Translations under genes and position numbers: made by a program
Shown here: piece after piece, positions 2-24,016 of the stretch
Layout: every line of letters starts with the position of its first letter
How positions within the stretch are numbered: the first letter of the stretch is position 1
Notes under the pieces: model-generated
Databases searched by the model: none
Seen by the model: only the letters and a program-made list of their open reading frames with translations
Told to the model about the DNA's origin: nothing
Source: a virus
Length of the DNA: 24,476 nt
Reading direction: 5' to 3' (one strand)
Virus record (IMG/VR): IMGVR_UViG_3300010885_012889
Location: 1 to 24,476 of that record

Positions 2-319
2 GATACTGATTATTCTCATACTATAAGTCAATGTTGCGGCATCAGATTAAATCGATATAATACTAACACACTAATGAGATCACATTTTGATCATATTCAT
101 TCATTGTTCGATGGAAAACAAAAAGGCATTCCAGCGTTGTCGATGATCGGAGTGTTAAATGAAGAATACACCGGCGGAGAATTAACATTCTTTGACGACT
201 ATACCGTTCCAACTAACACTGGGGATGTAATTGTATTTCCGAGTTGTTTCTTGTATCCGCATAGAATTAAAGAAATAACCAGCGGTACTCGTTATAGTTT
301 TGTTAGTTGGGCTTGGTAA
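2..319 (+). CDS. 2OG-Fe(II) oxygenase, prolyl-4-hydroxylase-like (5' partial)
   Basis: The frame stays open to the left edge, so this is the C-terminal 105 residues of a longer protein; the ATG at 74 is internal to the fold, because a conserved LNRY stretch lies before it. The double-stranded beta-helix core is visible: HFD (His28, Asp30 of the visible part) gives the HxD iron ligands, TGGELTFFDD is the central strand pair, GDVIVFPS is followed by the distal ligand in YPHR (His87), and Arg97 in GTRYS is placed to bind the 2-oxoglutarate carboxylate. Members of this family couple 2-oxoglutarate decarboxylation to hydroxylation of a protein or small-molecule substrate; the substrate here is unknown. 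It is the first visible gene of a + strand oxygenase operon and ends 3 bp before the next gene. Family assignment is firm; prolyl specificity is not shown. Confidence 0.85.
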   Translation, partial: DTDYSHTISQCCGIRLNRYNTNTLMRSHFDHIHSLFDGKQKGIPALSMIGVLNEEYTGGELTFFDDYTVPTNTGDVIVFPSCFLYPHRIKEITSGTRYSFVSWAW

Positions 320-322
320 ACT

Positions 323-1078
323 ATGAAGAAAATTTTTTATGCTCCGCGGTTTGACAATTATTCAATGCCATACGATCATCCATTATTGGAGGAGGAAGTA
401 TATATTCCGCCAGTACCGTATCTAACGTACTTCAAGGATTCGCATGAGAAACATGTCTATTGGAAATGCCCTGCATGGAAAACTTCTTTTAAAAACAGCT
501 ATGTATTCTTTTCTCAAATTGACATTGAAGTAAAGTATAACAAAGAAACAGGCGTTGTAGACAATGAAGCATTTAAGTATTGTACATTTGATGAAGCCAG
601 GGGTGCAGTCTATGAAAATGCTGGATTCTTTGACCCTCGAGAGCAAAAGCCGCCACCACCTTACAACGGTGTAGCAATTGGGCAGGTAAATCAGCAATTG
701 ATATTTTGGTTAGAAAAACAAAAATATAAAAATTTATGGTTAGAAATACAACCTATACCTGACATGATTCGCACACACAACGCAGAATTAATCGGAGGCG
801 AGTTCCCATTCAGCCGTTGGTTCAGGCCGTCATTGTTTGCATTTAAATTCCATAACGAAACAACTACTATTAAACGCGGCGATCCATTGGGCATTATTAA
901 ATTTAAAAATCTCGATGACTATTTAGAAGAAATTGTATTAGAACGTGCAGAGCCGTCTAATCAATTGATTAGAAAATCTGAAAATCACACAAGATTAAAG
1001 ATTTTCTTACCTAATAAATCATGGAATCTTATCAAGGACAAACCGGAATCAAAATGTCCGTTTAAATTTTGGCGATGA
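323..1078 (+). CDS. Conserved phage protein of unknown function (DUF6065-like)
   Basis: A 251-aa protein without the HxD...H...R oxygenase pattern of its neighbours. Recognisable stretches are YWKCPAWKTSFKNSYVFF (about 46-63), a Pro run at 110-113, LWLEIQPIPDM (138-148), a GGEFPFSRWFRPS segment (158-170) and IKRGDPLGIIKF (183-194). The CPA...F.NSYV and RGDPL signatures resemble the DUF6065 family that I recall from phages and bacteria; I assign this from memory of the pattern, not from a search. No signal peptide or membrane segment is seen. The start lies 3 bp after the previous stop and the TGA stop overlaps the next ATG (ATGA), so it is translated as part of the oxygenase operon. It may be an accessory or a substrate of the oxygenases; the function is unknown. 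Confidence 0.7.
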   Translation: MKKIFYAPRFDNYSMPYDHPLLEEEVYIPPVPYLTYFKDSHEKHVYWKCPAWKTSFKNSYVFFSQIDIEVKYNKETGVVDNEAFKYCTFDEARGAVYENAGFFDPREQKPPPPYNGVAIGQVNQQLIFWLEKQKYKNLWLEIQPIPDMIRTHNAELIGGEFPFSRWFRPSLFAFKFHNETTTIKRGDPLGIIKFKNLDDYLEEIVLERAEPSNQLIRKSENHTRLKIFLPNKSWNLIKDKPESKCPFKFWR

Positions 1079-1770
1079 GTGAATTATATTTGATGTTTCC
1101 TACACCGGTAGTTCGTGTAGCGGCTACAATAGAAAATTATGATCCTGTACAATTAGAAATACAGGCAGCCTATAATCAAATTCAAAGCACACACGACACA
1201 TCATCAGTTTCGTATCTTTATAAATCTATGGAAGAAACTGATATATTTGAAAAAACCTACAATTTTATTGAGAAATATAATTGTGTTAATCTAAAAAATA
1301 GAATACACGATGCTGTTAATCAATATGCAGATAAGATAGGCTGGACTGGTAATAGAGATTATGTCATTAAAAATTCCTGGATTAATATCGCTGATCAGCA
1401 CGATGTGCATGGAGTCCACTGTCATCCTGGTTATGCTATTTCAGGAACTTATTATTTTAGAGTAAGCAAGGAGCAAGGATCAATTTGTTTCAATAATCCT
1501 AACCCAGCAATGATGCATTGTCAGTTTCCACAGGGTGCGCTGTGTCCACAGACCATAGATATTATACCTAACGATGGGGACATTGTTCTGTTTCCAAGCT
1601 GGTTAATGCACAGTACACGGAAAAATAAATCTACAGAACAGAGAATCAGTGTGGCATTCAACGTTGATTTTGTAGGTGGTCACGATATTGCCTACGGTCT
1701 TAATAAAGAAAATTACAGTCCATTCCATAAAGTAGAGAGAAGTCTTAGGGATATAAGCAATATACAATGA
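1075..1770 (+). CDS. 2OG-Fe(II) oxygenase-like protein, HxH type (TIGR02466-like)
   Basis: A TTG start at 1069 is possible, but I choose ATG 1075 because it forms an ATGA overlap with the preceding stop, as at other junctions here; this gives 231 aa. The N-terminus LYLMFPTPVV is typical of the TIGR02466 putative 2OG-oxygenase group. Core motifs: SWINIA (101-106), VHCHPGYAISGTYYF (His115 and His117 as candidate iron ligands in HxH form), GDIVLFPSWLMH (distal ligand His179) and QRISVAFN (Arg190 for 2-oxoglutarate). It has a clear paralogue at 3482-4153, sharing the YDPVQ(L/I)EI segment, SWINIA and the C-terminal half. About 30 residues after the core (GGHDIAYGLN onwards) are absent from the paralogue. 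Substrate unknown. Confidence 0.85.
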   Translation: MSELYLMFPTPVVRVAATIENYDPVQLEIQAAYNQIQSTHDTSSVSYLYKSMEETDIFEKTYNFIEKYNCVNLKNRIHDAVNQYADKIGWTGNRDYVIKNSWINIADQHDVHGVHCHPGYAISGTYYFRVSKEQGSICFNNPNPAMMHCQFPQGALCPQTIDIIPNDGDIVLFPSWLMHSTRKNKSTEQRISVAFNVDFVGGHDIAYGLNKENYSPFHKVERSLRDISNIQ

Positions 1771-2291
1771 AATACGATTTATTTTCTATTCCGATTTTTG
1801 TAGATCAAGTTGATCTAACAAAGATTCAAATAACTGAAACGGGTTACGATGCCACATGGTTGAGTGATGTCAAAACTAACTATCTGCATCAACCGGAGAT
1901 TCATCCAGATACATTTGATTATTTGAGCAGTGTTATTGATAAGCATCTTTCCACTACCGGAACGTATAAAAATCCAACCATCGGTGCTATATGGCGCAAT
2001 GCCTACAGTAAAACTGATACGCAGGAAGTACATATTCATGCAGGATTCCAATGGAGTTTTATAATTTATGAAACTGTGCAAGAGTCTAAAACTGTATTTT
2101 TAAATCCTGCATGGAAACTTATTGAAAATCAAATGGGGATCTGTGCACCGGCATTTCCGATGAATTATCGACCAAAGGTAGGCCCAGGTACTATTATAAT
2201 CTTTCCAAGTTTTATCGAACATCATGTACTTGCTGGCAACGAAGGCACTACCATTGCTGGAAATATTAGATTAGAATATATCGATGAATAA
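1767..2291 (+). CDS. 2OG-Fe(II) oxygenase-like protein lacking the canonical arginine
   Basis: A 174-aa protein that begins in an ATGA overlap with the upstream gene. The fold is recognised from an N-terminal LFSIPIFV strand, IWRNAYS (75-81), the VHIHAGFQWSFIIYE segment with His89 and His91 as an HxH pair, and GTIIIFPSFIEHH with His152 or His153 as distal ligand. When TTIAGNIRLEY is aligned with the RISIAFN strand of its relatives, the position of the 2-oxoglutarate-binding arginine is occupied by Gly160; Arg168 lies further along the strand. It may therefore use a different anchoring residue, bind another co-substrate, or be catalytically weak. It overlaps the next gene by 8 bp. The family call is reasonable; activity is uncertain. 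Confidence 0.7.
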   Translation: MKYDLFSIPIFVDQVDLTKIQITETGYDATWLSDVKTNYLHQPEIHPDTFDYLSSVIDKHLSTTGTYKNPTIGAIWRNAYSKTDTQEVHIHAGFQWSFIIYETVQESKTVFLNPAWKLIENQMGICAPAFPMNYRPKVGPGTIIIFPSFIEHHVLAGNEGTTIAGNIRLEYIDE

Positions 2292-2796
2292 TTATAAATT
2301 ATTTCAATCTCGATATATTATAGATAATCAACAGGCATTTATCGATCAATGTCAGGAAGTTAAAGCAGCGTTTTCTGGCGAGGACACAACTAAAAATTAT
2401 TACAAATATAATTTATTTGCTGTTACCGCTGGGTCTGTATACTTTTATAATCTCTACAAAGAGCTTAGAGATATAATTAGAGCAGAATTTCCAACACAAC
2501 AGATATGGTTCCAGGCATGGGTCAATTTGCATACTCAAGATAATGTATTAGATTGGCACAATCACGTTTGGGACTATCACGGATACATTTCAATAGATCC
2601 AAAAAACACCATAACTGAATTTGAAGACTATTCGATCACTAATAAACCAGGACAGATCTATCTTGGACCAGGGCAGCGCCTACACAGAGTCAATGTAACA
2701 GCACCATACGAGGGTGATAGGATAACTATAGGATATGATATAACAATGGATCCTATGATGAATACAGGGTGCAGTGGGTTATTTCCGCTAATATAA
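2284..2796 (+). CDS. 2OG-Fe(II) oxygenase-like protein, HxH type
   Basis: A 170-aa protein starting 8 bp inside the previous gene, which implies coupled translation. Motifs: WFQAWVNLHTQDNVLDWHNH (75-94) places His92 and His94 as proximal ligands, DYHGYISI is the following strand, GQIYLGPGQRLHRV provides distal His134, and DRITIGYDI provides Arg146 for the 2-oxoglutarate carboxylate. The order and spacing (about 40 residues between HxH and distal His) match a minimal jelly-roll dioxygenase. The N-terminal 70 residues are poorly conserved and may form the substrate lid. It diverges from the TIGR02466-like neighbours and lacks their HPG sequence. Substrate unknown. Confidence 0.75.
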   Translation: MNNYKLFQSRYIIDNQQAFIDQCQEVKAAFSGEDTTKNYYKYNLFAVTAGSVYFYNLYKELRDIIRAEFPTQQIWFQAWVNLHTQDNVLDWHNHVWDYHGYISIDPKNTITEFEDYSITNKPGQIYLGPGQRLHRVNVTAPYEGDRITIGYDITMDPMMNTGCSGLFPLI

Positions 2797-2804
2797 GAGA
2801 ATAT

Positions 2805-3470
2805 ATGTTACCATTTCCAACAATGTGCATAGATAATTTTTACTTAGAACCAGACAAGGTTCGAGAGTTTGCACTGGCACAAGAGTTTACAGCATCTCCC
2901 ACTGGGCAGTGGCCTGGCAAGCGAACTAAGGATATCTTTTTATTAGATCCAGAATTTATGAGCAAGTTCTGTCATAAAATATTTTCTTATTATTTTGATT
3001 TACAATATAGTAAATTACGATGGAAAATTACTTCATCGTTTCAACTTATTGATGCATATGACACCGATGTTAGCTCATCTAAAAATAAAGGATGGATACA
3101 TTATGACGATGCAATATTTGGCGGAATTATATACCTTAATAAGTCACCAAATATCAATAGCGGAACTTCATTGTATGAAATCGTTGATCCAAGTAAGTAT
3201 GACAAAGAGCATCAAGCCAAACATTTCTTTTATCTAAATCAGACCTACAATGAAAATTATGAAACAGAAATGACTCAACAAGATTCTAATTTTATAGAAA
3301 CTGTGCGATTTTCAAATAGATATAATAGAATGATAAGTTTTGACTCTGGTGTTCCGCATAGGGCTGATAATTTTTCTATGGATTCTGAACCAAGATTAAC
3401 ACAGGTGTTCTTTGTAGAAGAAATAGAAAGTAATAGACCCAGATCAGCTGAGCTTATCTCTACAGTATAA
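2805..3470 (+). CDS. 2OG-Fe(II) oxygenase-like protein (DUF6445-like), HxD type
   Basis: I place the start at ATG 2805, 8 bp after the previous stop and preceded by a weak AGAGA ribosome site; a GTG at 2769 would overlap the previous gene and adds 12 residues of non-conserved sequence. The product is 221 aa. MCIDNFYLEPDKVREFAL (7-24) is the typical start of the DUF6445 group as I recall it. WIHYDDAIFGGIIYLN carries His99 and Asp101, SGVPHRADNF carries distal His185, and PRLTQVFFVEE carries Arg197. The W.GKRT motif near residues 36-41 is also typical of the group. It belongs to the + strand oxygenase operon. The substrate is unknown. Confidence 0.75.
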   Translation: MLPFPTMCIDNFYLEPDKVREFALAQEFTASPTGQWPGKRTKDIFLLDPEFMSKFCHKIFSYYFDLQYSKLRWKITSSFQLIDAYDTDVSSSKNKGWIHYDDAIFGGIIYLNKSPNINSGTSLYEIVDPSKYDKEHQAKHFFYLNQTYNENYETEMTQQDSNFIETVRFSNRYNRMISFDSGVPHRADNFSMDSEPRLTQVFFVEEIESNRPRSAELISTV

Positions 3471-3481
3471 GGAATAATATA

Positions 3482-4153
3482 ATGCCTCTCATGTACCTGT
3501 TTCCAACACCGATATATAAAGATCCTGCCACAGTGTATAATTACGATCCTGTGCAGATTGAAATTCGTGATTGTCTGCAATATATCAAAGATAACGACGA
3601 TTTAGAAAACGTATCTTTTATCTATAAAGATTCAGGCAAACGTAAACAAGAAAAAGAACTTGGTGGGTATTTTATCTCTGATGATTTAATAGGAAAACAT
3701 AATTTAAAAAATCTCGAGTCACGAATTTACGAAGCATTAGAAAGATACCTTGCCGGAGTTGAGTGGACTACAGTTATACACAATCCCGATCCGGTAATCC
3801 CTAATTTAAAGGGCGGTAACTTTAAGATTATGAATTCTTGGATCAACATTGCTGAAAAAAATGTTAAACATGATTACCATTCACACCCAGGATATACAAT
3901 TGCCGGAGTCTATTACTTTAGAGTCAGTGATGCGCAGGGCGGACTGTGTTTTAATAATCCAAATTTAATGCTGTACAATGCAGGCTTTCCTGAAGGTAGA
4001 TGCTCACCGCAAAGCATTGAATTAATTCCAGCCGACGGCGATCTTATATTATTTCCAGCCTGGCTGCAACATGCTACTCATGCAAATACTACCGACGAAG
4101 AACGTATCAGTATTGCATTTAATATCAATTATATTCCATCTGTTAAAGAATAA
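3482..4153 (+). CDS. 2OG-Fe(II) oxygenase-like protein, HxH type, paralogue of 1075-1770
   Basis: A 223-aa protein with a good ribosome site (AAGGA at 3469-3473, 8 bp before ATG), the clearest on the + strand, suggesting independent initiation. It begins MPLMYLFPTPIY and shares with the gene at 1075-1770 the YDPVQIEI segment, NSWINIAEKN, HSHPGYTIAGVYYFRVS, GGLCFNNPN, GDLILFPAWLQH and ERISIAFN. Candidate ligands are His133 and His135 (HxH), distal His197, and Arg208 for 2-oxoglutarate. A segment at about 51-75 and another at about 98-115 are longer than in the paralogue. The two genes probably arose by duplication within the operon, with three other genes now between them. Confidence 0.85.
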   Translation: MPLMYLFPTPIYKDPATVYNYDPVQIEIRDCLQYIKDNDDLENVSFIYKDSGKRKQEKELGGYFISDDLIGKHNLKNLESRIYEALERYLAGVEWTTVIHNPDPVIPNLKGGNFKIMNSWINIAEKNVKHDYHSHPGYTIAGVYYFRVSDAQGGLCFNNPNLMLYNAGFPEGRCSPQSIELIPADGDLILFPAWLQHATHANTTDEERISIAFNINYIPSVKE

Positions 4154-4155
4154 TC

Positions 4156-4722
4156 ATGTTGAAAAAAACTATAGAATATCAAGATAAAAAAATTGTAATC
4201 TATGAACAGGCGTTCGATCATAGAGAAAATTTAACAATATACAATCAGATTGTAAATTTATCTTTTGTTAGAACAAACATCGACTGCTATCTGCTTAATA
4301 ATTTAGATAGAGATGTAAAATGGCAAAGCATGATTGATCTGGACGGGCCGCTGTCTGAAATAATAAACAAAAAATATTCCAGAGTTATCAGCGAGTTAGA
4401 TTGGTCTAAAGTTGCATTAAAAGAACAGTATGTAAATTATGCAACATCAAACACTGTGGATTTTTTACATACAGATGTGCCAGATAATAACCCTGGATCA
4501 TATACTCTATTACATTATGCGAATCATACTTGGAATGTTAACTGGCACGGCGAGACAATGTTCTATAGTGATAATCAAGATGAAGTTATCTATTCAGTTA
4601 CTATTAAACCGGGTAGTATAGTTTTATTTGATTCAAGACTTCAACATTCAGCAATTGCTCCATCTATTGTTGCTGAACATCCAAGATATACCATTGCATC
4701 TAAGTTGGTTTTGAAGACTTAA
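4156..4722 (+). CDS. 2OG-Fe(II) oxygenase, HxD type
   Basis: A 188-aa protein that starts 2 bp after the previous stop. The iron-binding triad is textbook: FLHTDVP (His105, Asp107) and RLQHSAI (His164); HPRYTIASKL supplies Arg177 for 2-oxoglutarate. Between them lie YTLLHYAN, WHGETMFY and a KPGSIVLFDS turn, the usual order for small phage and bacterial proline/asparagine-hydroxylase-like enzymes (2OG-FeII_Oxy type). It ends the + strand cluster and its last 23 bp overlap the 3' end of the oppositely transcribed gene at 4700-5464, so no terminator fits between them. The target is unknown; a protein side chain or small metabolite is possible. Confidence 0.87.
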   Translation: MLKKTIEYQDKKIVIYEQAFDHRENLTIYNQIVNLSFVRTNIDCYLLNNLDRDVKWQSMIDLDGPLSEIINKKYSRVISELDWSKVALKEQYVNYATSNTVDFLHTDVPDNNPGSYTLLHYANHTWNVNWHGETMFYSDNQDEVIYSVTIKPGSIVLFDSRLQHSAIAPSIVAEHPRYTIASKLVLKT

Positions 4723-5464
4723 CAACATCTTGTTGCATACGTTTATGCATATTTTCTATTTTAGCTTTTTGATCTAACTCGGCAAAAAAATCTGTTAGGT
4801 CTGGGTGAGGTATAATTGTGTCCATAACACCTCGGTCTCTTCGAAGTGAATTATTAATTTCACATCTGTTTAAAAGATAATTAAATGCCAAGCTGATTCT
4901 GAATCCTTCTTTGGGATTTTCTGCAGCATGCCAGTATATAGAAGGAAAAAATACAGCACGGTTTTTTTTAAATTGTACTCTATGTACTTCTTTAGGTGGT
5001 AACAAATTTCCTTCTTCGTCTGGTTCTGGATTTTCGTAGAATAGAGTGTCGCCGTCATCTCCGTCGAGATAATAGACCATAGTCCACATATCTAATATAT
5101 CCCAATCAAGATGAACTGCTAATTTATTATTGGTAGGGAATTGACCGTTAAAATGAACTCTATGGATATTCATTACTGTGGCATCTGGAATTAGTCGTGG
5201 CAAATGATGATCTTGCCACAGATCATTGAAATAATTGGCAATTCCTTCGTGATCGCCTGTAAATGGTCCCCTGGGTCCTTTATGCGATCCTGCTTGTGCT
5301 ACCCATAGTACAAAGAATCTACCGTAATCCTGTCGAGTAGCAGCCATTCCGTACTTCCAACGCTGTGCTTCTGTAATACGGTTCACCCAGGAATCGTATA
5401 ACCACTCAGGAGCAACGTCGTCGACTACAAAAATTTTATTGATATCTACAAATTTTTCACTCAT
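4700..5464 (-). CDS. 2OG-Fe(II) oxygenase, HxD type, with C-terminal extension
   Basis: A 254-aa protein, the last gene of the long - strand unit. VHLDWD gives His118 and Asp120, DGDTLFYENPEPDEEGN is the central strand with a long acidic loop, FPSIYWHAAEN gives distal His179, and FRISLAFNYLLN gives Arg189. WTMVYYLDG just after the HxD is typical of phage prolyl-4-hydroxylase-like proteins. About 50 residues after the core (from NNSLRRDRGVMDT to the end) are Lys/Glu-rich and probably helical, which is unusual among the neighbours. The start is set by an ATGA overlap with the upstream gene (stop at 5461-5463). It converges on the + strand oxygenase operon and overlaps its last gene by 23 bp. 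Confidence 0.87.
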   Translation of the reverse strand: MSEKFVDINKIFVVDDVAPEWLYDSWVNRITEAQRWKYGMAATRQDYGRFFVLWVAQAGSHKGPRGPFTGDHEGIANYFNDLWQDHHLPRLIPDATVMNIHRVHFNGQFPTNNKLAVHLDWDILDMWTMVYYLDGDDGDTLFYENPEPDEEGNLLPPKEVHRVQFKKNRAVFFPSIYWHAAENPKEGFRISLAFNYLLNRCEINNSLRRDRGVMDTIIPHPDLTDFFAELDQKAKIENMHKRMQQDVVKSSKPT

Positions 5465-6093
5465 GCTAATCTCACATTAATTGACGAATCACCATTACCC
5501 AATATCCCAACAGGAAACAAATTAAATGCTAAAGAATATCGATCTTCAGTACCCGTGTATCTGCTTATTCTATGCTTAAGGAGGCTTGGAAAGAATACCA
5601 ACAAATTAGCGTCTGGCTCAATAGTAATACGTTTACTGTTTAAAATATTCCATTCCGTAGGCTCGTTAATCAACATAGTGTCATTTTTAATACCCATATC
5701 AGAAAATAATAAGTTTCCACTATCGAGGCTGTTGGTTTTTGAATGATACAACACTCCGCTATACAAACAATTTTTATGACTATGATATTGACAAAAACCC
5801 CCTGCCACAGTTTTTGTCATCCATGAAGTTGTAAATTCAAAATCTGTTTTTTCTAAGTGCAGTACAGAATTTTTAAATTCGTTAAACTGATTTAAAATAA
5901 TATTTTTAACAATGGGGTAACTGTCTAACAGTCGCATGTTTTGACTGCAATAAACCGAGTGACTGTCGTCTGATGTAGTTTCGTGATATTCTAATAATGG
6001 AGCGGCTTGCCATAATTCACTGATATCTTCTTTTATTTTTGCTGCGGCAATTACAGAAGGAAACACTGGAAGAATTTCAAAATTAGTGGTCAT
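5461..6093 (-). CDS. 2OG-Fe(II) oxygenase-like protein, HxH type (TIGR02466-like)
   Basis: A 210-aa protein. The N-terminal FEILPVFPSVIAAAKI resembles the FPTPV start of TIGR02466-type proteins. TTSWMTK (88-94), QYHSHKNCLYSGVLYH (His104 and His106), a SGNLLFSD strand, ANLLVFFPSLLKHRI (His174) and EDRYSLAFNLFP (Arg185) give the complete metal and 2-oxoglutarate pattern. It is joined by ATGA overlaps on both sides to the neighbouring oxygenases, so three such genes are probably co-translated. It differs from the + strand HxH genes in having KNC instead of PGY after the second histidine. Substrate unknown. Confidence 0.83.
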   Translation of the reverse strand: MTTNFEILPVFPSVIAAAKIKEDISELWQAAPLLEYHETTSDDSHSVYCSQNMRLLDSYPIVKNIILNQFNEFKNSVLHLEKTDFEFTTSWMTKTVAGGFCQYHSHKNCLYSGVLYHSKTNSLDSGNLLFSDMGIKNDTMLINEPTEWNILNSKRITIEPDANLLVFFPSLLKHRISRYTGTEDRYSLAFNLFPVGILGNGDSSINVRLA

Positions 6094-6704
6094 GTGTTTT
6101 CAACTCCAACATTGAATACCATAGTTATTCTACCATCTATATTTTGATTAGGAGGAACTCGGTGCATGGCCCACGATTCCCAAAATAAAAATAATCCTGG
6201 TTTAGGAACTACCATAATAGTATGATCATCTCTTATTTTAAAAATCTCTGAATTGTGTGTATACGAATCTTCTTGGAGATAGTTTCTCCAGGCTGCGCTG
6301 ACATGTCTTGGGGATTTAAATTCTAAGTTTGACGACCCTGGCGGAACTTGAAGATATATTAATCCTGATAATAATGCACCGGGGTGTGCATGAGGAGCAT
6401 GTTCGTCTCCTAACACCATTTCGCTGGCAAATAGGCTAACCCAAAGTCCAAGATTTGGTTTTAGTTTTATTTTTTGTTTTTCTAAATATGCTGTCGATTG
6501 TTCTAAGATATAATCAACAAAGAATTTTAATTCAGGTTCTGTAGCGAGCCCATCAACTTCGGAATAGGTATTTTTATAATTCCATTCGTTGGTTAATTTA
6601 GAGGGCATAGACAAAAACTTCCGAGCTAACGGAAGTAATTGTCCAGCTAATGCTGCGTCTTGAGTATGATTTATTGTGAAAGAATAAAAGAATTGCTCAT
6701 CCAT
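6090..6704 (-). CDS. 2OG-Fe(II) oxygenase-like protein, HxH type (TIGR02466-like)
   Basis: A 204-aa protein, first of the three - strand oxygenases. LGLWVSLFASE (85-95), HAPHAHPGALLSGLIYLQVP (His105 and His107), SNLEFKSPR, PKPGLFLFWESWAMHRV (His181) and GRITMVFNVG (Arg192) form the full jelly-roll dioxygenase signature, closest to TIGR02466. The ribosome site is poor: AGGTG lies only about 2 bp before the ATG, within 8 bp of the upstream stop, so it may depend on translational coupling. The AATAAATA sequence immediately upstream resembles a late promoter box, but it would leave almost no leader. The gene follows the tail-chaperone-like gene and so ties the oxygenases to the fibre block. Confidence 0.84.
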   Translation of the reverse strand: MDEQFFYSFTINHTQDAALAGQLLPLARKFLSMPSKLTNEWNYKNTYSEVDGLATEPELKFFVDYILEQSTAYLEKQKIKLKPNLGLWVSLFASEMVLGDEHAPHAHPGALLSGLIYLQVPPGSSNLEFKSPRHVSAAWRNYLQEDSYTHNSEIFKIRDDHTIMVVPKPGLFLFWESWAMHRVPPNQNIDGRITMVFNVGVENT

Positions 6705-6712
6705 GCACCTAT

Positions 6713-7171
6713 TTATTGGCTGGAATCTTTCACTGCCTTAATTGTGGTATAGAATGTGCTGGTTTTTGCGGCTTCACCTAACTTACCATTGTTGATATCT
6801 TTGTATAACATATCCAATTGGTCGCGCCAGTCTGGATATTTTCTTGCTCGCTTACCAGCAAGACTGTCATATTCTTCAAGATTGTGTTGATGACGTGCTT
6901 CTAATTCTGCCCATGTTGGCAAATCGCCTTGAATCTGATCCCATGTGTATACGTTTTTTGCTTCGCCTGTCCAACGATCAATTTCTTTATCTTCTTCTGA
7001 AGCAAGTGTATCTCTAAATCTTAACTGTTGATATTCACCTTCAGAGCTGAAGCTGTAGCTGCCAACGAATTCCCAACGACCGCCACGCTCTATTAATTCG
7101 TCAGCTAAGGCATGACCATAGAACGGTGCTTTTAATAAATCATATCCAACGGTTTTATCTAATAATGCCAT
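6713..7171 (-). CDS. Small tail-fibre-associated protein (putative fibre assembly chaperone)
   Basis: A 152-aa, charged, probably helical protein. KYPDWRDQLDMLYKDI (111-126) followed by TTIKAVKD (142-149) is the YPxxxDQLDxLYKD...IKAVKD signature of small proteins found beside tail-fibre genes of many phages (XkdW/DUF4376-like or T4 gp38-type accessory proteins, by recollection). Such proteins are usually chaperones or fibre-assembly factors. The N-terminal 60 residues are unlike anything I recognise. AAGGA lies 7 bp before the ATG. It sits just downstream of the three tandem beta-rich proteins and the S74 fibre gene, consistent with a role in assembling them. Function is inferred from motif and location only. 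Confidence 0.6.
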   Translation of the reverse strand: MALLDKTVGYDLLKAPFYGHALADELIERGGRWEFVGSYSFSSEGEYQQLRFRDTLASEEDKEIDRWTGEAKNVYTWDQIQGDLPTWAELEARHQHNLEEYDSLAGKRARKYPDWRDQLDMLYKDINNGKLGEAAKTSTFYTTIKAVKDSSQ

Positions 7172-7192
7172 TTTAATTTCCTTGTATTTTTG

Positions 7193-7759
7193 TTAATAAC
7201 GAGAAAGGTTACCAGAATTCATTACATACTGGTCAATTTCCCATACTTCTAATAAATTGTTATTCCATCCGCCTCTACGGTCTTGTCGGCCAATGTCGCA
7301 ATGTACTCGACATGGACCGTTCCAGTTGGCGTGATAGATTCTAAAACTGTGTGCTTCACTTGGATAGCTTGGATGTACTGGAATTAGATAATCCACAGCA
7401 CACATCCAATATAAGTCTCCGGCATCGTTTTCAAGTGTTGCATGATGGCCTTGGTCCATAACGCGATTCCACCCCGAGCTCGGAGTCCAACGATAAATGG
7501 CCGCTCCGGTTCCTTGTGCGCCACCACCTTGGTCGTCACAGATTGTTTGATAACGAATTCTATACCAGTTATTGGCATTCGCTGGAACACCCATATCTAC
7601 CTGTGATCCTGCATACTGCCATTGCGGACCAAAACCGCTGCCTGCTGAAAAACTTGTATTTTGTGATGATGTGAAACCTACTTTAACAAATCCTTCGATA
7701 CTGTTTTGTGCAATAGTGTCTGCGTTAACTATTCCTGTTGATGTTAATGTTGTTGGCAT
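7193..7759 (-). CDS. Beta-rich putative virion/adhesin protein, tandem paralogue 3 of 3
   Basis: A 188-aa protein with no family that I recognise. It shares with the next two genes an N-terminus of the type MPTTLTSTGI, then SQVDMGVPANANNWYRIRYQ (52-71), a DDQGGG turn, RWTPSSGWNRV, HATLENDAGDLYW, PVHPSYPSEAHSFRIYH, IGRQDRRGGWNN and LLEVWEIDQ, ending LSRY. The high content of Trp, Gly, Tyr and Asn with no hydrophobic helix suggests a compact all-beta domain such as a fibre head or carbohydrate-binding domain. It is not visibly related to the giant WxGxW repeats. The ribosome site is the GAGG made by the last codons of the upstream paralogue, 9 bp before this ATG. Confidence 0.72.
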   Translation of the reverse strand: MPTTLTSTGIVNADTIAQNSIEGFVKVGFTSSQNTSFSAGSGFGPQWQYAGSQVDMGVPANANNWYRIRYQTICDDQGGGAQGTGAAIYRWTPSSGWNRVMDQGHHATLENDAGDLYWMCAVDYLIPVHPSYPSEAHSFRIYHANWNGPCRVHCDIGRQDRRGGWNNNLLEVWEIDQYVMNSGNLSRY

Positions 7760-7762
7760 TCT

Positions 7763-8326
7763 TTAATACCTCGATAAATTCGTTGTTGTGGCCCAGTTGA
7801 AGTCTAATTCCCAGACTTCAAACATGCCGTTATTCCAGTTGTCATGACGGTAATCTGCACCAATTGAGCAGTTACAGCGCATGGCTACGTCTGGGTGTCT
7901 ACGACCATAAACTCTAAAAACGTGCTGTTGAGTCGGGTAGCTTTGATGTACTGGTGCATACCAAATGCTTCTAATACTCGTATAAAAGTCACCGGCGTTG
8001 TTATCGTAGTTAGCATGCCAACCATAGTCAAGGATACGATCCCAGCCAGAACTTGGAGTCCACCGATATAGTGCGTAACCACTGCCGCCGTTACTGCCGC
8101 CCTGGTCATCAGTATCTGTATAAAATTCGCAACGGTACCAATTTTGTGAATTTTGTGGAACACCCATGTCAATCTCAGTGCCGTTGATAAAATCCCAGTT
8201 ACCGTTAGGCAAGCCTTGGTCCACTGAGGTGCAACCGGATAATCGATGTTTGATAATTGGGCGTGTGCGTAATTGTGTTAGTCCTGAGTTATAAGTAATC
8301 CCAGTTCCTGTCATTGTTGTTGGCAT
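7763..8326 (-). CDS. Beta-rich putative virion/adhesin protein, tandem paralogue 2 of 3
   Basis: A 187-aa protein starting MPTTMTGTGITYNSG and ending NLSRY. Its shared core is TEIDMGVPQNSQNWYRCEFY, DDQGGSNGGSGYALYRWTPS, DRILDYGWHANYDNNAGDFY, APVHQSYPTQQHVFRVYG, IGADYRHDNWNN and MFEVWELDFN. The variable parts relative to its neighbours are the N-terminal 50 residues and the loop after FRVYG, as expected if those loops contact different ligands or partners. Translation probably initiates at a GAGG located within the last sense codons of the upstream paralogue, 8 bp before this ATG. The location next to an S74 fibre and a fibre-chaperone-like gene suggests a virion surface protein; no direct evidence. 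Confidence 0.72.
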   Translation of the reverse strand: MPTTMTGTGITYNSGLTQLRTRPIIKHRLSGCTSVDQGLPNGNWDFINGTEIDMGVPQNSQNWYRCEFYTDTDDQGGSNGGSGYALYRWTPSSGWDRILDYGWHANYDNNAGDFYTSIRSIWYAPVHQSYPTQQHVFRVYGRRHPDVAMRCNCSIGADYRHDNWNNGMFEVWELDFNWATTTNLSRY

Positions 8327-8328
8327 AA

Positions 8329-8931
8329 TTAAAACCTCGACATATTGTTAGTTGATTGGATACGATCGCCATCAACTTCCCAAACTTCAAAACAATTGTT
8401 TTGAAATCCGTTACGACGGAGGTCGTTACCGATAGATGCGTTGAATCTCATGTTTCCGTTGTCATGTTTGTGCCAACCGAATCTAAATTGATGTTGTTCT
8501 GACTGATAACTTGGATGCGTTGGGACCCAGAAAATTCCATGATTTTGGCGATACCAATCACCGTAGTTGTTATCATAGCTGGCATGTGAACCCTGTGCTA
8601 ACACTTGGTTCCAGCCCGAACTTGGTGTCCAGCGTTCAACACGGATACCAATACCACTGATGTTTCCGTCGGTATCGTCTGTTACTGTTTGCCAGCAAAG
8701 TCTGTACCAGTTGTTGGTTTTTGTTGGAACCCCCATGTCTACTTGTGAACCGTCTACGATTCCGCTTGTACCGTCTGGAGTTCCGGTATACTGATCAACA
8801 GTTGATCCGCTGCCAAAGCGTACCCTAACAATCATATTAGAGTTTGTTTGATTAGTTGTAGATGCGCTTGTACCGTATTGATCGTATATTGGCGATCCGT
8901 ACTGTACTGCTGTTCCAGTTAATGATGCCAT
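8329..8931 (-). CDS. Beta-rich putative virion/adhesin protein, tandem paralogue 1 of 3
   Basis: A 200-aa protein, the longest and first translated of the three tandem paralogues. It starts MASLTGTAVQYGSP, carries SQVDMGVPTKTNNWYRLCWQ, DDTDGNISGIGIRVERWTPS, NQVLAQGSHASYDNNYGDWY, VPTHPSYQSEQHQFRFGWHK, IGNDLRRNGFQNN and CFEVWEVDGD, and ends NNMSRF. It has about 12 extra residues near the N-terminus. The stop of the upstream S74 gene is only 1 bp outside this ATG, and the best purine-rich site (GGGGAG) lies about 11 bp away within that gene, so translation may be coupled. The family is not recognised; a receptor-binding or decorative virion role is inferred from context. Confidence 0.72.
   Translation of the reverse strand: MASLTGTAVQYGSPIYDQYGTSASTTNQTNSNMIVRVRFGSGSTVDQYTGTPDGTSGIVDGSQVDMGVPTKTNNWYRLCWQTVTDDTDGNISGIGIRVERWTPSSGWNQVLAQGSHASYDNNYGDWYRQNHGIFWVPTHPSYQSEQHQFRFGWHKHDNGNMRFNASIGNDLRRNGFQNNCFEVWEVDGDRIQSTNNMSRF
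8335..8338 (-). promoter_or_regulatory. Ribosome site embedded in the C-terminal Ser-Arg codons
   Basis: The TCG AGG codons for the terminal Ser-Arg of the gene at 8329-8931 create GAGG, placed 8 bp before the ATG of the next paralogue. The same arrangement recurs at 7769-7772, 9 bp before the ATG of the third paralogue. The third paralogue encodes Ser-Arg with TCT CGT and lacks the site; its downstream neighbour has its own AAGGA. Confidence 0.6.
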
Positions 8932-8932
8932 A

Positions 8933-9850
8933 TTAAGCTAATCTCCCCTTCAATTCTTCGATTTGTGCTTGTTGTTCTTTAATTGCTTCACTTAATAGTG
9001 CTACAATGTTTCCGTAGGCAATAGATTTCATTCCATCTGCGGCAGTATGTACCACTTGAGGTAATATTTTTTCTACTTGTTGCGCCAAATATCCAATCTC
9101 GTCATCTGTTTGACCGATACGATTGAATATTACACCGGCTAATTGCTGTACTAAATCCAATGCGCCTGTAATAGGACGAACGTTTTCTTTTAGTCTTTCG
9201 TCTGATGATGCTGTAACAATTGTTGATGTTAGTGTACCAGTAGAAGCATTAAAGGTAAATGCTGTTGCTACGTTTGGTGCTTGGTTTGTTGTAGTACTGT
9301 TGCTGCTGACAAACGTAGGATAGAATGTAGAGTTTGTTGTTGTCAGTGTAGTTGCAATATTACTGGCAGATCCAGAAAAAATTGTAGCTGCTAATGTTCC
9401 AGTACTTGGCTGGAATGTTAATTTTGTACTTGAAATATTAACGGCTGTTGCAGTACCAGTTGATGTTGTACCAATGTAGAGATAGTGTGTGCTTGATGAT
9501 GATGTTTGATCACTAACACTGACACCACCGTTTTGCCAACTTAGTGTACCTGACGCATTAGTTGATAAAAACTGACCGTTGGTACCATCTGCTGCGGGTA
9601 AGGTCCACGTAACGTTTGCTGCTACAGTAGCAGCTGATTTAAATCCCACCCAGTTTGAACTGTCTGCGTCGGCGAATCTAAACACACCTGCATCGTTAAT
9701 TTGCGCATCTGAGGCAATTTTAAAAATACCAGTGCCAGACGGATCAACAGTTATGTCTGCGTTATCAGCTGTGGTAAGTGTAGTAGCAGTAAATTGTACT
9801 CCTGCTGCTGCTATACCGCCGGCTGCGCCTCCTGAAATTCTTCTTGCCAT
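8933..9850 (-). CDS. Phage fibre protein with C-terminal peptidase S74 chaperone domain
   Basis: A 305-aa protein. Residues 1-210 are Ser/Thr/Gly/Ala-rich, low-complexity fibre sequence with motifs seen in repetitive phage fibres (VTWTLPAADGTNGQFLSTNA at 80-99, then GTLSW). From about 215 the intramolecular chaperone (peptidase S74) begins with SSDERLKENV, continues through GVIFNRIGQ and EIGYLAQQVEKILPQVV, and ends in a coiled-coil-like IKEQQAQIEELKGRL. In characterised S74 domains a Ser preceding Asp and a downstream Lys in this motif (here Ser216 and Lys221) carry out self-cleavage after trimer folding, releasing the chaperone. AAGGA lies 7 bp before the ATG. It probably forms a trimeric fibre or spike made with the adjacent small proteins. 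Confidence 0.85.
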   Translation of the reverse strand: MARRISGGAAGGIAAAGVQFTATTLTTADNADITVDPSGTGIFKIASDAQINDAGVFRFADADSSNWVGFKSAATVAANVTWTLPAADGTNGQFLSTNASGTLSWQNGGVSVSDQTSSSSTHYLYIGTTSTGTATAVNISSTKLTFQPSTGTLAATIFSGSASNIATTLTTTNSTFYPTFVSSNSTTTNQAPNVATAFTFNASTGTLTSTIVTASSDERLKENVRPITGALDLVQQLAGVIFNRIGQTDDEIGYLAQQVEKILPQVVHTAADGMKSIAYGNIVALLSEAIKEQQAQIEELKGRLA

Positions 9851-9865
9851 GATTCGTTCCTTATA

Positions 9866-10198
9866 TTAAACCGTTGATGTTTCGATGCCGTAGACGTTAA
9901 CTGATACACCAGTTCCGCTGGCGTATACTATCACGTACTTGTTAGCTTCATCTAAGATCAAACCTGTTCTTTCTAATACGCCCTTGCCTGCTAACACTGT
10001 ATCGTATTCAATCCATTCTGCGTTTGCAGGTGAACTTGCGCTGGTTGAAATTGCGAGTCTAATGCTTACCGATGTGCTGGGATTGCGATTAAGCACGTTT
10101 ACAGTAACCACTGAAAAAACGCTTGCCGCTACTGGGCCGTACACTGGCGTGTTTGTCGCTGCGCTTAAATCTGCTGCTCCTAATCTTCCTGTTGCCAT
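9866..10198 (-). CDS. Small beta-sandwich-like virion protein
   Basis: A 110-aa protein, MATGRLGAADLSAATNTPVY onwards, with alternating hydrophobic and Ser/Thr residues (VFSVVTVNVLNRNPSTSVSI), then LERTGLILD and a terminal strand ending VYGIET. The layout (an unpaired N-terminal strand, an 'NRNPSTSVSIRLAI' strand, a loop, and a last 'VNVYGIE' strand) is like that of the 110-aa protein at 24017-24349, so both may belong to one family of small phage tail or fibre accessory proteins, though direct sequence identity is low. GGAG lies about 10 bp before the ATG. It sits just downstream of the giant gene A. Function not known. Confidence 0.65.
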   Translation of the reverse strand: MATGRLGAADLSAATNTPVYGPVAASVFSVVTVNVLNRNPSTSVSIRLAISTSASSPANAEWIEYDTVLAGKGVLERTGLILDEANKYVIVYASGTGVSVNVYGIETSTV

Positions 10199-10215
10199 AA
10201 TTTATTTCTCCGTTG

Positions 10216-10222
10216 TATTTAG
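10216..10222 (-). promoter_or_regulatory. Weak late-promoter-like box (CTAAATA) before the 110-aa gene
   Basis: On the - strand CTAAATA overlaps the stop codon of giant gene A and is followed by the GGAG ribosome site of the gene at 9866-10198. It differs from TATAAATA at two positions. Listed as a weak candidate only. Confidence 0.2.
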
Positions 10223-13200
10223 TTTAAAAAGTAGTTCCAAGCTACTGGATAACCTCTGACTCCACCTTTGAATTCAAAAGTTGCTCTCATGTTAATTGCA
10301 CCACCTGTTGTAGTGGTAATCTGCTGTCCTGCAATATAGATGTAACCTGCTGTTACGCTATTTACGTTCAATGCAGCGCCACCGCCACCAATCTGTGATG
10401 TAATATAGGCTTTAATTGCTCTCTGTGTAGGAACTACAGTGTCTGAATTCTGTGTAAAGAATGGATCTGTACTAAATTCAGTAATAGTAGCTGAACCGCC
10501 ACCTAAAGATAAGTTACCAAGCGTAAGTTCTTGTAGACCTGCAATGTTAAACGCATCTGCATTCAATGTTGCAACACCGGTGGACTGTTCAATTGTAAAC
10601 AATTCACCAACTCGGAAGTTACCGTCCTGGTCAGTTGATGTGTAGAACACACGTCCACCGTTTGAATCTACAGTTTCATTAGCCTGTGTAGGTGCATTAA
10701 CTGGAATGCCGCCTGGATAATTAGTGTCATCATAATTGCCTGAACCAATATCAAGGAAGTCGTGTCCTGTTAAACGAACCTGTGAGTAACGAATTCTTGT
10801 TGTTACGCCCTGCTCATGCTCTGGAGGACTGTAATCCTTCATGTTAGGAGCAATCTGGAAGAACGCTGAATATGCACCTGGGAATGATCCAAGCTGTGTA
10901 AGTACCTGTACCAATTTAAATGTTTGGTTTGGTAGGTGTGCAAATACCACGTTAGATCCTGCTACTGGATATTTGGTCAATCTCTTGACTGCAATATACT
11001 GACCGCTTTGATAGTAATCACCGTATCCGTCACCGGTATCAAGATCAACTGCTGCTGCAATATAGCCAGTACCTCTGTTAATGAAGCTTGGATTGCCTAA
11101 TGCTCCGTTGCCAATACGCACCTGTGTCGGTGCTTCGTAGGTATTGTTTGGATCTGTGATAGTAATAGTCGGAGCCACAGTGTATCCGCTACCTGGCTCT
11201 GTTAATCTAATAGCAAAGATCTTCTGCTGTGATACATACGCACGAGCTTTTGCTTGGGCACCAACTAATAGCTGTGAAGCTACTGTACTTGCTGTGCTGC
11301 GTTGTACTGCTACAAACGATCCTGACTGATTTGGATTACCAAATATTACTGCGCTGAAACCGTTAGCTGCTGTTGATGTAGTGCGTGAAGTCCATAATAC
11401 GCCATCTTCAGAGCTGGCTGCTTGTGTGCTTTGGCTTACAGCAAGGAACACGCCTTGACCGTAACTTACATCTGTGTATTGTGCAGACGGTACAGTGCTG
11501 GCTACCCATGTAATACCATCAAGACTATAAGCTGCTGCTGTGCCTGATGTATTTGATACTGCTACAAATCTATTGTTACCGTAGGTCACTGATGTCCAGT
11601 TTGTGCTGCTTGGTAATGTACGTGACACCCAGTTCAGACCACCGTCTGTTGAGCTGGCTGCTTGTGTACCGCCGCTGGCGATAGCAACAAATTTTCCGGC
11701 TCCGTATGCAACCGCAGTCCATGTTGTGTTTGCTGGCAATGCACCGCCGGATAACCAGCTGATACCACCGTTGATACTGTATGAAGACGCTGTGCTACCG
11801 CTTCTAACTGCTACCCATTTACCTTGTCCGTATGCAACACCAGACCATGTACCTGAAGATGATAGTGCTCCACCTGCTGTCCATGTTATACCGCCATCAA
11901 TTGAATAAGCGTTAACTGTTGTGCTACTCGATACTGCTACAATAGCTGTTGCATTTGGAGTAGCTGTTCCTGTTCCAGAACCTGCTCCTGTAGCAACAAA
12001 TATTTCTCCTACTACCTGATTGACAGCACCAATAGTAGTCCAAATTGTATCGCCAAGACTTAGAATAGTATATGAACGACCGATTACAAACGACCCTGCT
12101 GTTTCTTGAGCAGTTAATTTACCGCTGGCCATTGCAGTCCAGTTTGAAGTGCTTGGCAGAGCTAATAGTCTTTCAGTCCAAGTAGTTCCATCAATCGATG
12201 TATTAATAGTTCTTGAACCTGATGATATTGCAACAAAGTTACCACCAGATGCTTTTCCAACGAATTCAAACGCTTGAATAGCACCGTTAGTTGAGTTAAC
12301 TGCGGTAATAGTTATAGTAATATTATTAGTTGTTGCTGCACCGCCGAGAGCAGTACCAGCTAATGTAATAGTATCTAATCTTGCATAGCCAGTACCTGCT
12401 GTTCTTAATATAACTGAAGAATACTTCGTGCCTTTTCTTGTTACGTTAAACGCAGCAGCACTACCAGAACCAGAAGTTGTACCAGTAACACTTAGGTATG
12501 TTCGTTGTAATTCAGCATAGGCAACATCTGTATATGTTTGGCTGGTTGCTAATGTTCTTGCTGTAGACGAATAAGTCGGTGCTGTGAATGAAATTCTTGG
12601 TTCCATTACATAGGTTGTTGATGCATCAGGAGATGTAATAGTTGTTCCTGGAACAATATGATCCCACCCAGCCGCACCTGTTGATTCTTTGTTAACTGTA
12701 GCTATTTTTGTACCTGAATTGTATGTTGCAACAATACCAAATTGACCAGCAGCAGTGCCGCCAGTTAAAAATAATTTCATTCCAATATATGCACTGCTTA
12801 ATTCGCCGTCAGTAGCAGCAATGGTAATCTGTGTAGTTGTACCGCCCTGTGCAGTATTGGCATTTGAAACATAGCCGTAACCACCATAGTTGCCGTCGGC
12901 TTCTGGTGCTGATGTTGAATCGTCTACATAATCAAGCAATCTAACTTGGAAAACTGCACCGTCACGTATCTCGTCACCTTGTTCAACGCTGGCATTAATA
13001 CCTGCGCCACTGATTGAGTAAGTTGCAGTAGTGTAATCTGTTCCAGCATTGGTCCACTCTACGTTGAATATTGAAGTACCACCGTCAGTGTTAACTTTAC
13101 CTGTGGCTGCTACGAAGTTTCTGTTGTCAACAATACCTGTACCAACAGTTTCAGTTACGTCATACCCTTCTGCTACTGAACCGAACTTACCGTAAGAGTT

Positions 13201-16200
13201 GTTACCGTTTGTACCGCGAATACGTCCGCCTGCTTCTGACAAATAACCGACGTGTGCGTAGTATGTAAACACAGAAACAAGTTCTGCACGACCGTTATTA
13301 GTTACCCAAGCGCCGATACCGTCGCTGATCAATTGTGTAAAGTCGTTTGACACGATAGACTTGTTACCACCGTTATGCAATGCACCGTCAATCTTTTGAC
13401 CAATTGCAGCATAACCAAAACAGACACAGTTTTGTACGTATGGTGAGCGGTTAGTAATCCAACCACGGAAGTCTGCAGGTCCCCAACCCGGATCAAGACT
13501 TGCGTATGCTCCTGCGGTTGTTCTTGAAGTACCGTAAATGTTTGGAGGTGTAAGATCTCCATACAGTCCTTCAAGCGTCATATTGCGTAGACCAGTACCA
13601 TTGCGTAGATAGAATGCATCTTCTTCATAACTACCAAGAACAGCATTGGCATAATATCTTGCAGCCATTATTGTTTTGTAGTTTCCTGGATACATTGTAT
13701 CAAACTTAAATGCATCGATCATTCTGCCTACATCACGTAAGCATAATGCTGTATTAAAGTAATAAGACACTGTCATTGATCCTGCGGCTGTTGATAGGTC
13801 TGCCGGAGTTGTAGCATTACGTGTTAACGCAACGGTGAAACGTGTTGAGCTTATTACGTTTTGAACATAGTAAGTTGTTTCTGTACTTACTCCCCCAAAC
13901 ACTGTTCCGGAAAATCTAACAGCAGCATTTCGTTTCAACCAACTTGTGTCACTGATAGTTAAGTAATCAGCGGAATTGGTCGCTGTAACAGTACCTTTAA
14001 ATGTCTGAGTCATATATGCTGAAATTTCAGCAACAATGTATGCTCTGTTGCGCTCAAGTTGTAGGCGAGCCCAATCAGCTGCACGAATTTCTGTTTGACA
14101 TACTGAACCATCAAAGGTTGCACCAAAGATAATATCATCGATAGTTGTCATTAATGTAGAAATTCTTGCCTGTGCAGTTGCATCTCCGCCTACGTTGGCG
14201 TTGGCCTGTGTCTTAACATAGGTAAACGCTGCACGAGTAGCTGTTTTCTGATTGTTAGTAAACACATCACTGGCGCTGGATCTTAGATATGCATAGGCTG
14301 CATTAGTTGACTGAACATTAGAGTTAAACATAAAGTCAAACATCACAGCTTCAAGAATTAATCTAACATCTCGCTGGCACTTGGCTGTGTTGTATACCAA
14401 TGTTGGATAGGTTGCAGTCAAGTAACTGGTTGAGTTTGTAACAATTGTTTCTTGTGCAGCATCAAGTGTCTGTGCTGCTGTGATTAGTGCAGTAGTTGAT
14501 GTTACAGCGTTAGTTGCTACTGGGTAATCGATCTTTTCAAAGTCGAGGTCAAGTCCAGAACCGTTGGTAAATGTAGCTAATACGCTGCCACCATAAGATG
14601 CTGCCAATTGGAATGTATTAGTAGCAACCGTTCCTACTACCCAGTATTTTACTCCAGCAGTTAGTCCGTTGGAAGTAGTTCTTGGAATTACAGCATCGCC
14701 AACTAATAAACCGTGTGTTGCAGAAGTAAATGTGTTATTAGTTGCAATCTGTGTAATATTGATCTGCGGAGTTAGGCTGGTTGTTGAATCCCCTGCAATG
14801 ATATTAATAATAATATCAATGCCGTTACCAATAAATGTAGATGCTGATGATCCGCCAGTGCGATTAGTACTATCAGTAAACTGAGTTGATAAGTTACCGG
14901 TCGAACGTGTTACAGCGGTATTGGCAACAATCTGTTGCATTACTGTTTTTAATCTACTGTAAGATGCTGATGTTGCAGCTAATTCTGTAGAGTCAATCAT
15001 TAATGTTGTGCTTGAATTACCGTCAAAGTAAGCAAGGCCAGCATTTAATGTCTGTGAATATCCACCGTAGGTTAAATCGTAAACCATTGCATCGACAACA
15101 TATCCAACATCGCGTTTGCATCTGGTTTTGGAATACTTAACTGTAGGATAGTTAACTGCAATAAACGCAGTGATTTCTTGTTTCAAGAATTCTTTGTTTT
15201 CTTGCAATAGGTAACGTGCATCGCCGTATCCTGACAAATATGCAGAATTGTAACCTGTCGGGTCAGTTAATAGAATAGGATCTGTAGAATTTAATCTATA
15301 GGCAGTGTTCCATTTCAGTGTACGAACAAGTTGTTGTAAACTGGTAACTTCTACAGAGCTGGCGTATGGCCAAGCACGGCTCTGTACTGCTGTATTTCCA
15401 GAACTTTCTGTAACGTCAGTACCAAGGATAACTTGGCCGACAACAGTTTCTAAACGATCTAATGTAGCAAGACTGTATTTTGCATCAGTTAAATTAACAG
15501 TGCTGCCAATAGGTCCAGCATGTGTTGAACGTACTTCGTCACCGATCAAACAAGTTTCAGCTGGAACAATAATCGGCAATACTTCTTGGAATACACCGCT
15601 CTTGATAAAAATACTGTTTGCTGGAACTGAACGATCTGGAAGATTAGTTGCTGTCTGTTCAGTTAGTGCTGTTGTAAGAATTCCTACCAAGGTAGTTATT
15701 TCAGTGATTGCTGTAGGTTCAGCTGTGTAGGCTAAATCGATGTATTGCGCTACTGTTGAAGTGGAATTATCACCGTTAAGTGTTTGATAGTTTGCAGTAG
15801 GAGCAGTATTGTTTAATACCTTAGCAACTAATGTCAGCATGTAATTATAAGCTGCTGCATCTTTAGTACCTTCTACCCCCACCTTAGAGTATATCCCAGT
15901 ACCATTACCTTCTTCGGCTGTTGCATATATGTCACCGTTAGACAATAGATTGATATAGGCCAATGCTGCTGATAATGTTTTTAAGTTTCCGCCGTGATTA
16001 ATATCCCAGATCAAACGATCAACAACAAACCCTGTATCTCGCTCACACTTATATTCATCGTAATCAAATGCAGAAGTAAACGGAGAAATATTATTTGCTA
16101 TCTGGTAATCAATCCACTCTGTAACTTCTCGTTGAATAAATGCACGGTTCATCTCAAGCAAATATGCAGCGTTAGGTTTTCTGCAGCCGTTTTCTACCTG

Positions 16201-17910: not shown

Positions 17911-17939
17911 TATCCACTCCGATTTTTTTGAAGTTAGTG

Positions 17940-17946
17940 TATTTAT
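17940..17946 (-). promoter_or_regulatory. Candidate T4-type late promoter box upstream of giant A
   Basis: On the - strand this reads ATAAATA (preceded by A), one base short of the T4 late consensus TATAAATA. It lies in the largest intergenic gap of the window (17911-17949, 39 bp) and would leave a leader of about 20-25 bases carrying the GGAG ribosome site of giant gene A. AT-rich sequence makes chance matches fairly likely. Confidence 0.4.
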
Positions 17947-17949
17947 TCA

Positions 17950-23628: not shown

Positions 23629-23640
23629 AATTTATTCCGT

Positions 23641-24006: not shown

Positions 24007-24016
24007 AATTTAATCC

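Follow-up and report, generated by a model that had tools for sequence, protein, structure and literature searches.

What does a virus gain from ten putative 2OG-Fe(II) oxygenase genes packed against its fibre genes, and on what would their products act? The question was raised by a 24,476-base virus contig (hereafter the window, i.e. the whole stretch of DNA that was analysed), for which a first-pass annotation had reported ten adjacent genes of this kind, seven on the + strand and three on the - strand, beside a fibre block.

Layout of the oxygenase block

Region 2-6704 contains 11 ORFs (eight + and three -), with gaps or overlaps of at most 11 bases apart from the longer overlaps seen in the coordinates below. 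Pfam and PHROG profile searches identified ten of them as 2OG-Fe(II) oxygenase-like (seven + and three -), while the family profiles gave no such recognition for the eleventh, 323-1078. The features are as follows (genes are referred to below by their coordinates or first coordinate; G numbers denote related contigs).

2-319, + strand: 2OG-Fe(II) oxygenase truncated at its 5' end by the contig boundary, with the C-terminal 105 aa left; H28 x D30, H87, R97 (PF13640, 1.5e-11; ligands invariant in the G002 and G005 orthologues)
323-1078, + strand: non-2OG member of the block, phrog_17480 (1.5e-14; orthologues in G002, G003 and G005)
1069-1770, + strand: 2OG oxygenase, PF13759/TIGR02466; HxH H117/H119, H181, R192 (PF13759, 3.6e-24; TIGR02466 above cut-off; invariant ligands)
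1767-2291, + strand: 2OG oxygenase, PF13759; H89/H91, H152, without the canonical Arg (PF13759, 9.2e-7; phrog_81, 2.5e-25; three His invariant)
2284-2796, + strand: 2OG oxygenase-like, phrog_2696; H92/H94, H134, R146 (phrog_81, 1.2e-5; DSBH model; invariant ligands)
2769-3470, + strand: 2OG oxygenase-like, DUF6445/phrog_1644; H111 x D113, H197, R209 (DUF6445, 3.4e-9; phrog_1644, 2.9e-37; invariant ligands)
3482-4153, + strand: 2OG oxygenase, PF13759/TIGR02466; H133/H135, H197, R208 (PF13759, 3e-21; TIGR02466 above cut-off; PDB 3BVC and 2RG4 by sequence)
4156-4722, + strand: 2OG oxygenase, PF13640; H105 x D107, H164, R177 (PF13640, 5.2e-6; phrog_274; invariant ligands)
4700-5464, - strand: 2OG oxygenase, PF13640/phrog_274; H118 x D120, H179, R189; 23-base overlap of its 3' end with 4156-4722 (PF13640, 1.9e-7; invariant ligands)
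5461-6093, - strand: 2OG oxygenase, PF13759; H104/H106, H174, R185 (PF13759, 3e-14; invariant ligands)
6090-6704, - strand: 2OG oxygenase, PF13759; H105/H107, H181, R192; 8 bases downstream of the fibre-operon gene 6713-7171 (PF13759, 5e-18; invariant ligands)
6713-24349, - strand: fibre block, one operon (family matches; intergenic gaps of at most 39 bases)

The gene count, strands and motifs of the first-pass annotation were thus reproduced exactly, and the location beside a fibre block was borne out, the three - strand genes lying directly downstream of the fibre operon (an 8-base gap followed by 4-base overlaps). The description of ten adjacent genes held in part: all ten lie within 2-6704, but 323-1078 separates the first from the second. 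The first gene is truncated by the contig end, which leaves the array incomplete in the window; in contig G002 it is two genes longer.

The fibre block encodes a phrog_8886 protein, three phrog_8195 paralogues, a Peptidase_S74 fibre protein, two giant fibres with CBM_5_12 repeats (10219-17910 and 17950-23628) and small accessory proteins. The giant fibres (2563 and 1892 aa) are paralogous, being 42% identical in part, and carry 6-7 repeats. The phrog_8195 paralogues are in tandem (7193-8931), neighbours being ~40% identical, and are possibly alternative adhesin tips. A weak, sub-threshold Pfam match of 6713-7171 to 'Cytotoxic' (0.0079) is probably due to chance, as phrog_8886 matches far better. 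Scans for sigma-70 promoters and terminators performed near chance, Rfam gave zero matches, and the defence library returned generic 2OG matches only.

Families, active sites and divergence of the oxygenases

Eight of the ten oxygenases were assigned above the Pfam cut-off to PF13640 (2-319, 4156-4722 and 4700-5464) or PF13759 (1069-1770, 1767-2291, 3482-4153, 5461-6093 and 6090-6704); 2769 was recognized through DUF6445, and 2284 through phrog_81 and its fold. The NCBIfam model TIGR02466 scored above its cut-off for 1069 and 3482, and below it for 1767, 5461 and 6090. Iterated profiles tied all ten proteins together. Among the PHROG families concerned, phrog_274 is labelled 'DNA endonuclease V' and phrog_1644 'minor coat protein'; both match 2OG-like proteins under names that look wrong and that have been propagated into RefSeq phage records.

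Structure prediction, proposed in the first-pass annotation as a check, was run with AlphaFold on the gene that is weakest by sequence, 2284-2796, and gave a confident DSBH fold (pLDDT 93.3); the fold was modelled for this protein alone, the other nine being assigned by homology. The best PDB matches of the model include 3BVC, mimivirus lysyl hydroxylase L230 (6AX7), 2RG4, proline 3-hydroxylase and P3H1. The nearest solved folds are 6AX7 and the PF13759 structures 3BVC and 2RG4, at 12-15% identity. The substrate of L230 is viral collagen.

Four genes encode an HxD..H..R motif, five HxH..H..R, and 1767 HxH..H without the Arg; HxH..H is therefore present in six genes, as in the PF13759 relatives 3BVC and 2RG4, and HxD..H in four. 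The whole HxD/H..H..R pattern was found in 9/10 genes, compared to 12% of composition-shuffled copies. The putative metal ligands, among which the second His of the HxH members may count, are invariant across orthologues, and in 1069, 3482 and 5461 the ligands and the Arg are nearly the sole invariant H, D, E or R residues in comparison with relatives down to ~30% identity (30-45%). The Arg, expected to bind the C5 carboxylate of 2OG, occurs in nine of the ten genes, exactly as first reported; it is missing from 1767-2291 and also from the relatives of this protein, in which no invariant Arg replaces it. Ligand invariance points to enzymes kept under selection, and the oxygenases of the block look catalytically competent, although such conservation is no proof of 2OG chemistry, which is least secure for the three-His and Arg-less members.

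Pairwise global identities were not used, since free end gaps make them unreliable, and divergence was read from a tree. There, every window oxygenase groups with its own orthologue in other phages and lies at least 3.96 substitutions per site from its nearest window paralogue, the exception being the pair 1069/3482 (1.2). The low mutual similarity noted at first was thereby upheld, and the suggestion that so diverse a set has different substrates is plausible given the depth of divergence; the alternative raised with it, serial modification of one polymer, may also apply. Judged by these distances, the array expanded mainly by collecting diverged lineages; recent tandem duplication is ruled out as its main origin, except for 1069/3482.

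The block in other phages

The block occurs in the same place and arrangement, at 52-85% protein identity, in contigs G001/G002 (near-identical), G003 and G005. Its gene content is not constant: 2769 and 5461 are missing from G002, G005 has a different oxygenase in the region of 4156, and in G003 the 1069 orthologue (PF13759) is fused at its N-terminal side to a domain showing GDS and DxxH motifs (28611-30098). This domain is SGNH-like by eye and without a Pfam match; family, PDB and phage searches gave nothing usable. Inside the array, G003 (30150-31175) and G005 (20249-21283) also encode an orphan protein of 341-344 aa that had no usable match in family, PDB and phage-record searches. A viral scan with DUF6445 on its own returned zero relatives, and no tRNAs were found in the examined stretches of the related contigs.

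G002 extends past its orthologue of window gene 2-319 with two extra oxygenases (31379-32050 and 32052-32687), followed by genes for a NUDIX protein, two homologues of PA5oct proteins annotated as MS-detected, an adaptor, a dNMP kinase, sheath, tube and terminase. Its oxygenases on the strand opposite to the fibre genes come after the NUDIX gene and these two homologues. As read in G002, the array sits where the fibre operon and the neck/tail operon converge, in a T4-like order. A fibre-bearing variable island before the neck genes is found in G002, G005, G007 and G008; the window ends inside the block. Pelagi- and cyanomyophages have a hypervariable host recognition cluster, located between VrlC and gp14, that is likewise a fibre-bearing island in the same kind of position before the neck genes, but it was described with glycosyltransferases, not with 2OG arrays (PMC7029224).

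The density of the array had been called striking, and ten diverse genes in 6.7 kb are indeed present, but such density is not unique. Besides the syntenic blocks in four contigs (two of them near-identical), many other contigs carry arrays of 5-10 oxygenases. A scan with the 2284 family, in a sample biased towards arrays, gave 80 loci, of which 24 have contiguous arrays of at least five genes and nine have eight-gene arrays. At 59290-64780, the cultured cyanophage S-CREM1 (OP535465) carries nine contiguous genes with 2OG/JmjC annotations, out of ten oxygenases in total (PMC9964418). As in the window, this array is dense, contiguous, of low mutual similarity and downstream of fibre-like genes, and S-CREM1 has homologues of 2284 (39%) and 2769 (33%). 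S-CREM1 differs in being a member of the Kyanoviridae, and its array is one-stranded, includes JmjC, follows a flavin halogenase and consists of largely different 2OG subfamilies.

G007 and G008 carry ~11 contiguous oxygenase-like genes (some recognized only by homology to the S-CREM1 annotation) at the fibre/neck boundary, in a gene order close to that of S-CREM1 and with glycine-rich fibre-like proteins at the same boundary. In each, four PF04820 genes (tryptophan-halogenase family, flavin halogenases) flank the array, at 157510-162027 and 170216-171832 in G007 and at 32553-34169 and 42400-46983 in G008; a fifth lies elsewhere in G008, and some PF04820 genes lack the WxWxIP motif. Large 2OG repertoires per genome are also reported for S-SCSM1 (24 genes; PMC9602691) and S-SZBM1 (nine; PMC9146016) and seen in HTVC008M (16 phrog_81 matches), but the copies are reported as scattered in S-SZBM1 and are spread over the genome in HTVC008M, not gathered in a single block. 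With such arrays in S-CREM1, in G007/G008 and in part of the surveyed loci, the window block is a dense example of an already known type.

The link to T4-like cyanophages drawn at first was upheld in part. The diverse oxygenases belong broadly with the 2OG genes of cyanophages, and the phage-record relatives of the oxygenases, of 323-1078 and of the phrog_8195 proteins are cyanophages, with some pelagiphages and unassigned marine viruses. However, the G002 terminase is closest to that of PA5oct-group jumbo phages (54% identical), so the phage is not a typical cyanophage; the same terminase is 74-78% identical to those of the 278-kb contig G007 and the 265-kb contig G008. As in PA5oct-type phages (Arenbergviridae), the adaptor, kinase, sheath, tube and NUDIX genes of G002 lie in the same modules, whereas PA5oct itself (NC_071039) has zero phrog_81 matches. 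The G002 lineage combines a PA5oct-like virion core with a cyanophage-like fibre and oxygenase module. The shared modules suggest horizontal exchange between lineages, and the window phage is probably an uncultivated T4-like jumbo phage. As a host clue, psbA is absent from the jumbo relatives and present in only one 189-kb contig.

Possible substrates of the oxygenases

The phage literature cited here reports no substrate for 2OG oxygenases of aquatic phages. We tentatively favour, at less than even confidence, a hotspot for gene gain where two late virion operons meet; its oxygenases would act on the adhesion proteins of the phage itself. The ten to twelve enzymes gathered at this point would probably be produced alongside the fibre and neck proteins, presumably through late expression and co-transcription. 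Particular residues of the adhesion proteins, or modifications on them, would be hydroxylated or otherwise oxidized before assembly, and this would tune receptor binding or fibre stability.

The adhesion apparatus is favoured as the substrate because the block lies where virion operons end and because large arrays are close to fibre genes. A fibre homologue lies within 4 kb in 8/10 de-duplicated loci with arrays of at least five genes, compared to 1/25 loci with arrays of at most three; with both flanks of at least 4 kb the figures are 7/9 and 1/9 (p=0.015), in a comparison biased by the choice of fibre references, which belong to the same phage lineages, and by a survey seeded from an array gene. 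Several observations count against virion proteins as substrates. A collagen-like substrate encoded nearby would be expected for collagen prolyl/lysyl hydroxylases, but no window protein, fibres included, contains a run of at least six Gly-X-Y triplets. The late promoter motif TATAAATA is absent from the window, the best-known solved PF13759 relatives, 3BVC and 2RG4, have no assigned function, and some cyanophage 2OG genes lie among sugar genes.

It is this last context that makes surface-glycan tailoring the main rival to adhesin oxidation, and a possible, if on balance unlikely, explanation: the enzymes would hydroxylate or oxidize sugars or amino-sugar substituents, either in the surface polysaccharide of the host or in virion glycans, for example blocking other phages or altering the receptor. 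In the comparable fibre-to-neck locus of Sf-FS3, 2OG genes are interspersed with those for carbamoyltransferases, a cytidylyltransferase, a PfkB kinase, a phosphoheptose isomerase and an epimerase, and the S-T4 homologue of 323-1078 lies inside a heptose/glycosyltransferase cluster; with such neighbours the rival stays strong. The SGNH-like fusion in G003 fits it as well, and a jumbo-phage review has already proposed polysaccharide decoration where cyanophage clusters combine 2OG enzymes with a halogenase (PMC7824862). On the other side, profile searches found no recognizable glycan genes either in the window block or in the orthologous block of G002, and neither family nor phage-record matches were obtained for the SGNH-like and 341-aa proteins.

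A wider form of adhesin oxidation, which we regard as rather doubtful, would make the banks of 2OG oxygenases, with the flavin halogenases of sister phages, an oxidative system shared through exchange by PA5oct-like jumbo phages and cyanophages. Such a system would hydroxylate and halogenate adhesins post-translationally, combinatorially tuning or disguising receptor-binding surfaces. Few accessory genes are commoner in aquatic phages than those for 2OG oxygenases, and as the block recurs in several lineages and the cultured S-CREM1 is workable in the laboratory, the substrate question is testable.

The halogenases beside the arrays of the jumbo relatives and in S-CREM1 would also suit the production of a small secondary metabolite, halogenated or hydroxylated, as suggested earlier for S-SSM6a (PMC7824862), but the window block and its closest relatives contain neither a halogenase nor a scaffold-building enzyme, which leaves this improbable. 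Slightly less can be said for an effect on host metabolism or 2-oxoglutarate signalling, in which the enzymes would deplete 2OG or produce succinate, an idea put forward for cyanophage 2OG genes (Sullivan 2010; PMC3037559): ten diverged active sites would be needless, and the genes lie at the ends of virion operons. Least probable of all is DNA or nucleotide modification or repair, since the phrog_274 label looks like an inherited misannotation of PF13640 members, the NUDIX gene adjoining the block in relatives is also present in PA5oct, which has no phrog_81 match, and replication genes are absent from the block, leaving the dUTPase-like model of 323-1078.

This model is of low confidence (pLDDT 53). 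Its best PDB matches are all dUTPases, which we keep merely as a hint given the poor model; the protein possibly has a dUTPase-like beta-clip fold. A profile comparison with the dUTPase-like protein of S-CREM1 was unconvincing (4.5%). The S-CREM1 gene at a place comparable to that of 323-1078 is annotated as a nucleotidohydrolase, and the phrog_17480 protein accompanies 2OG arrays in several contigs.
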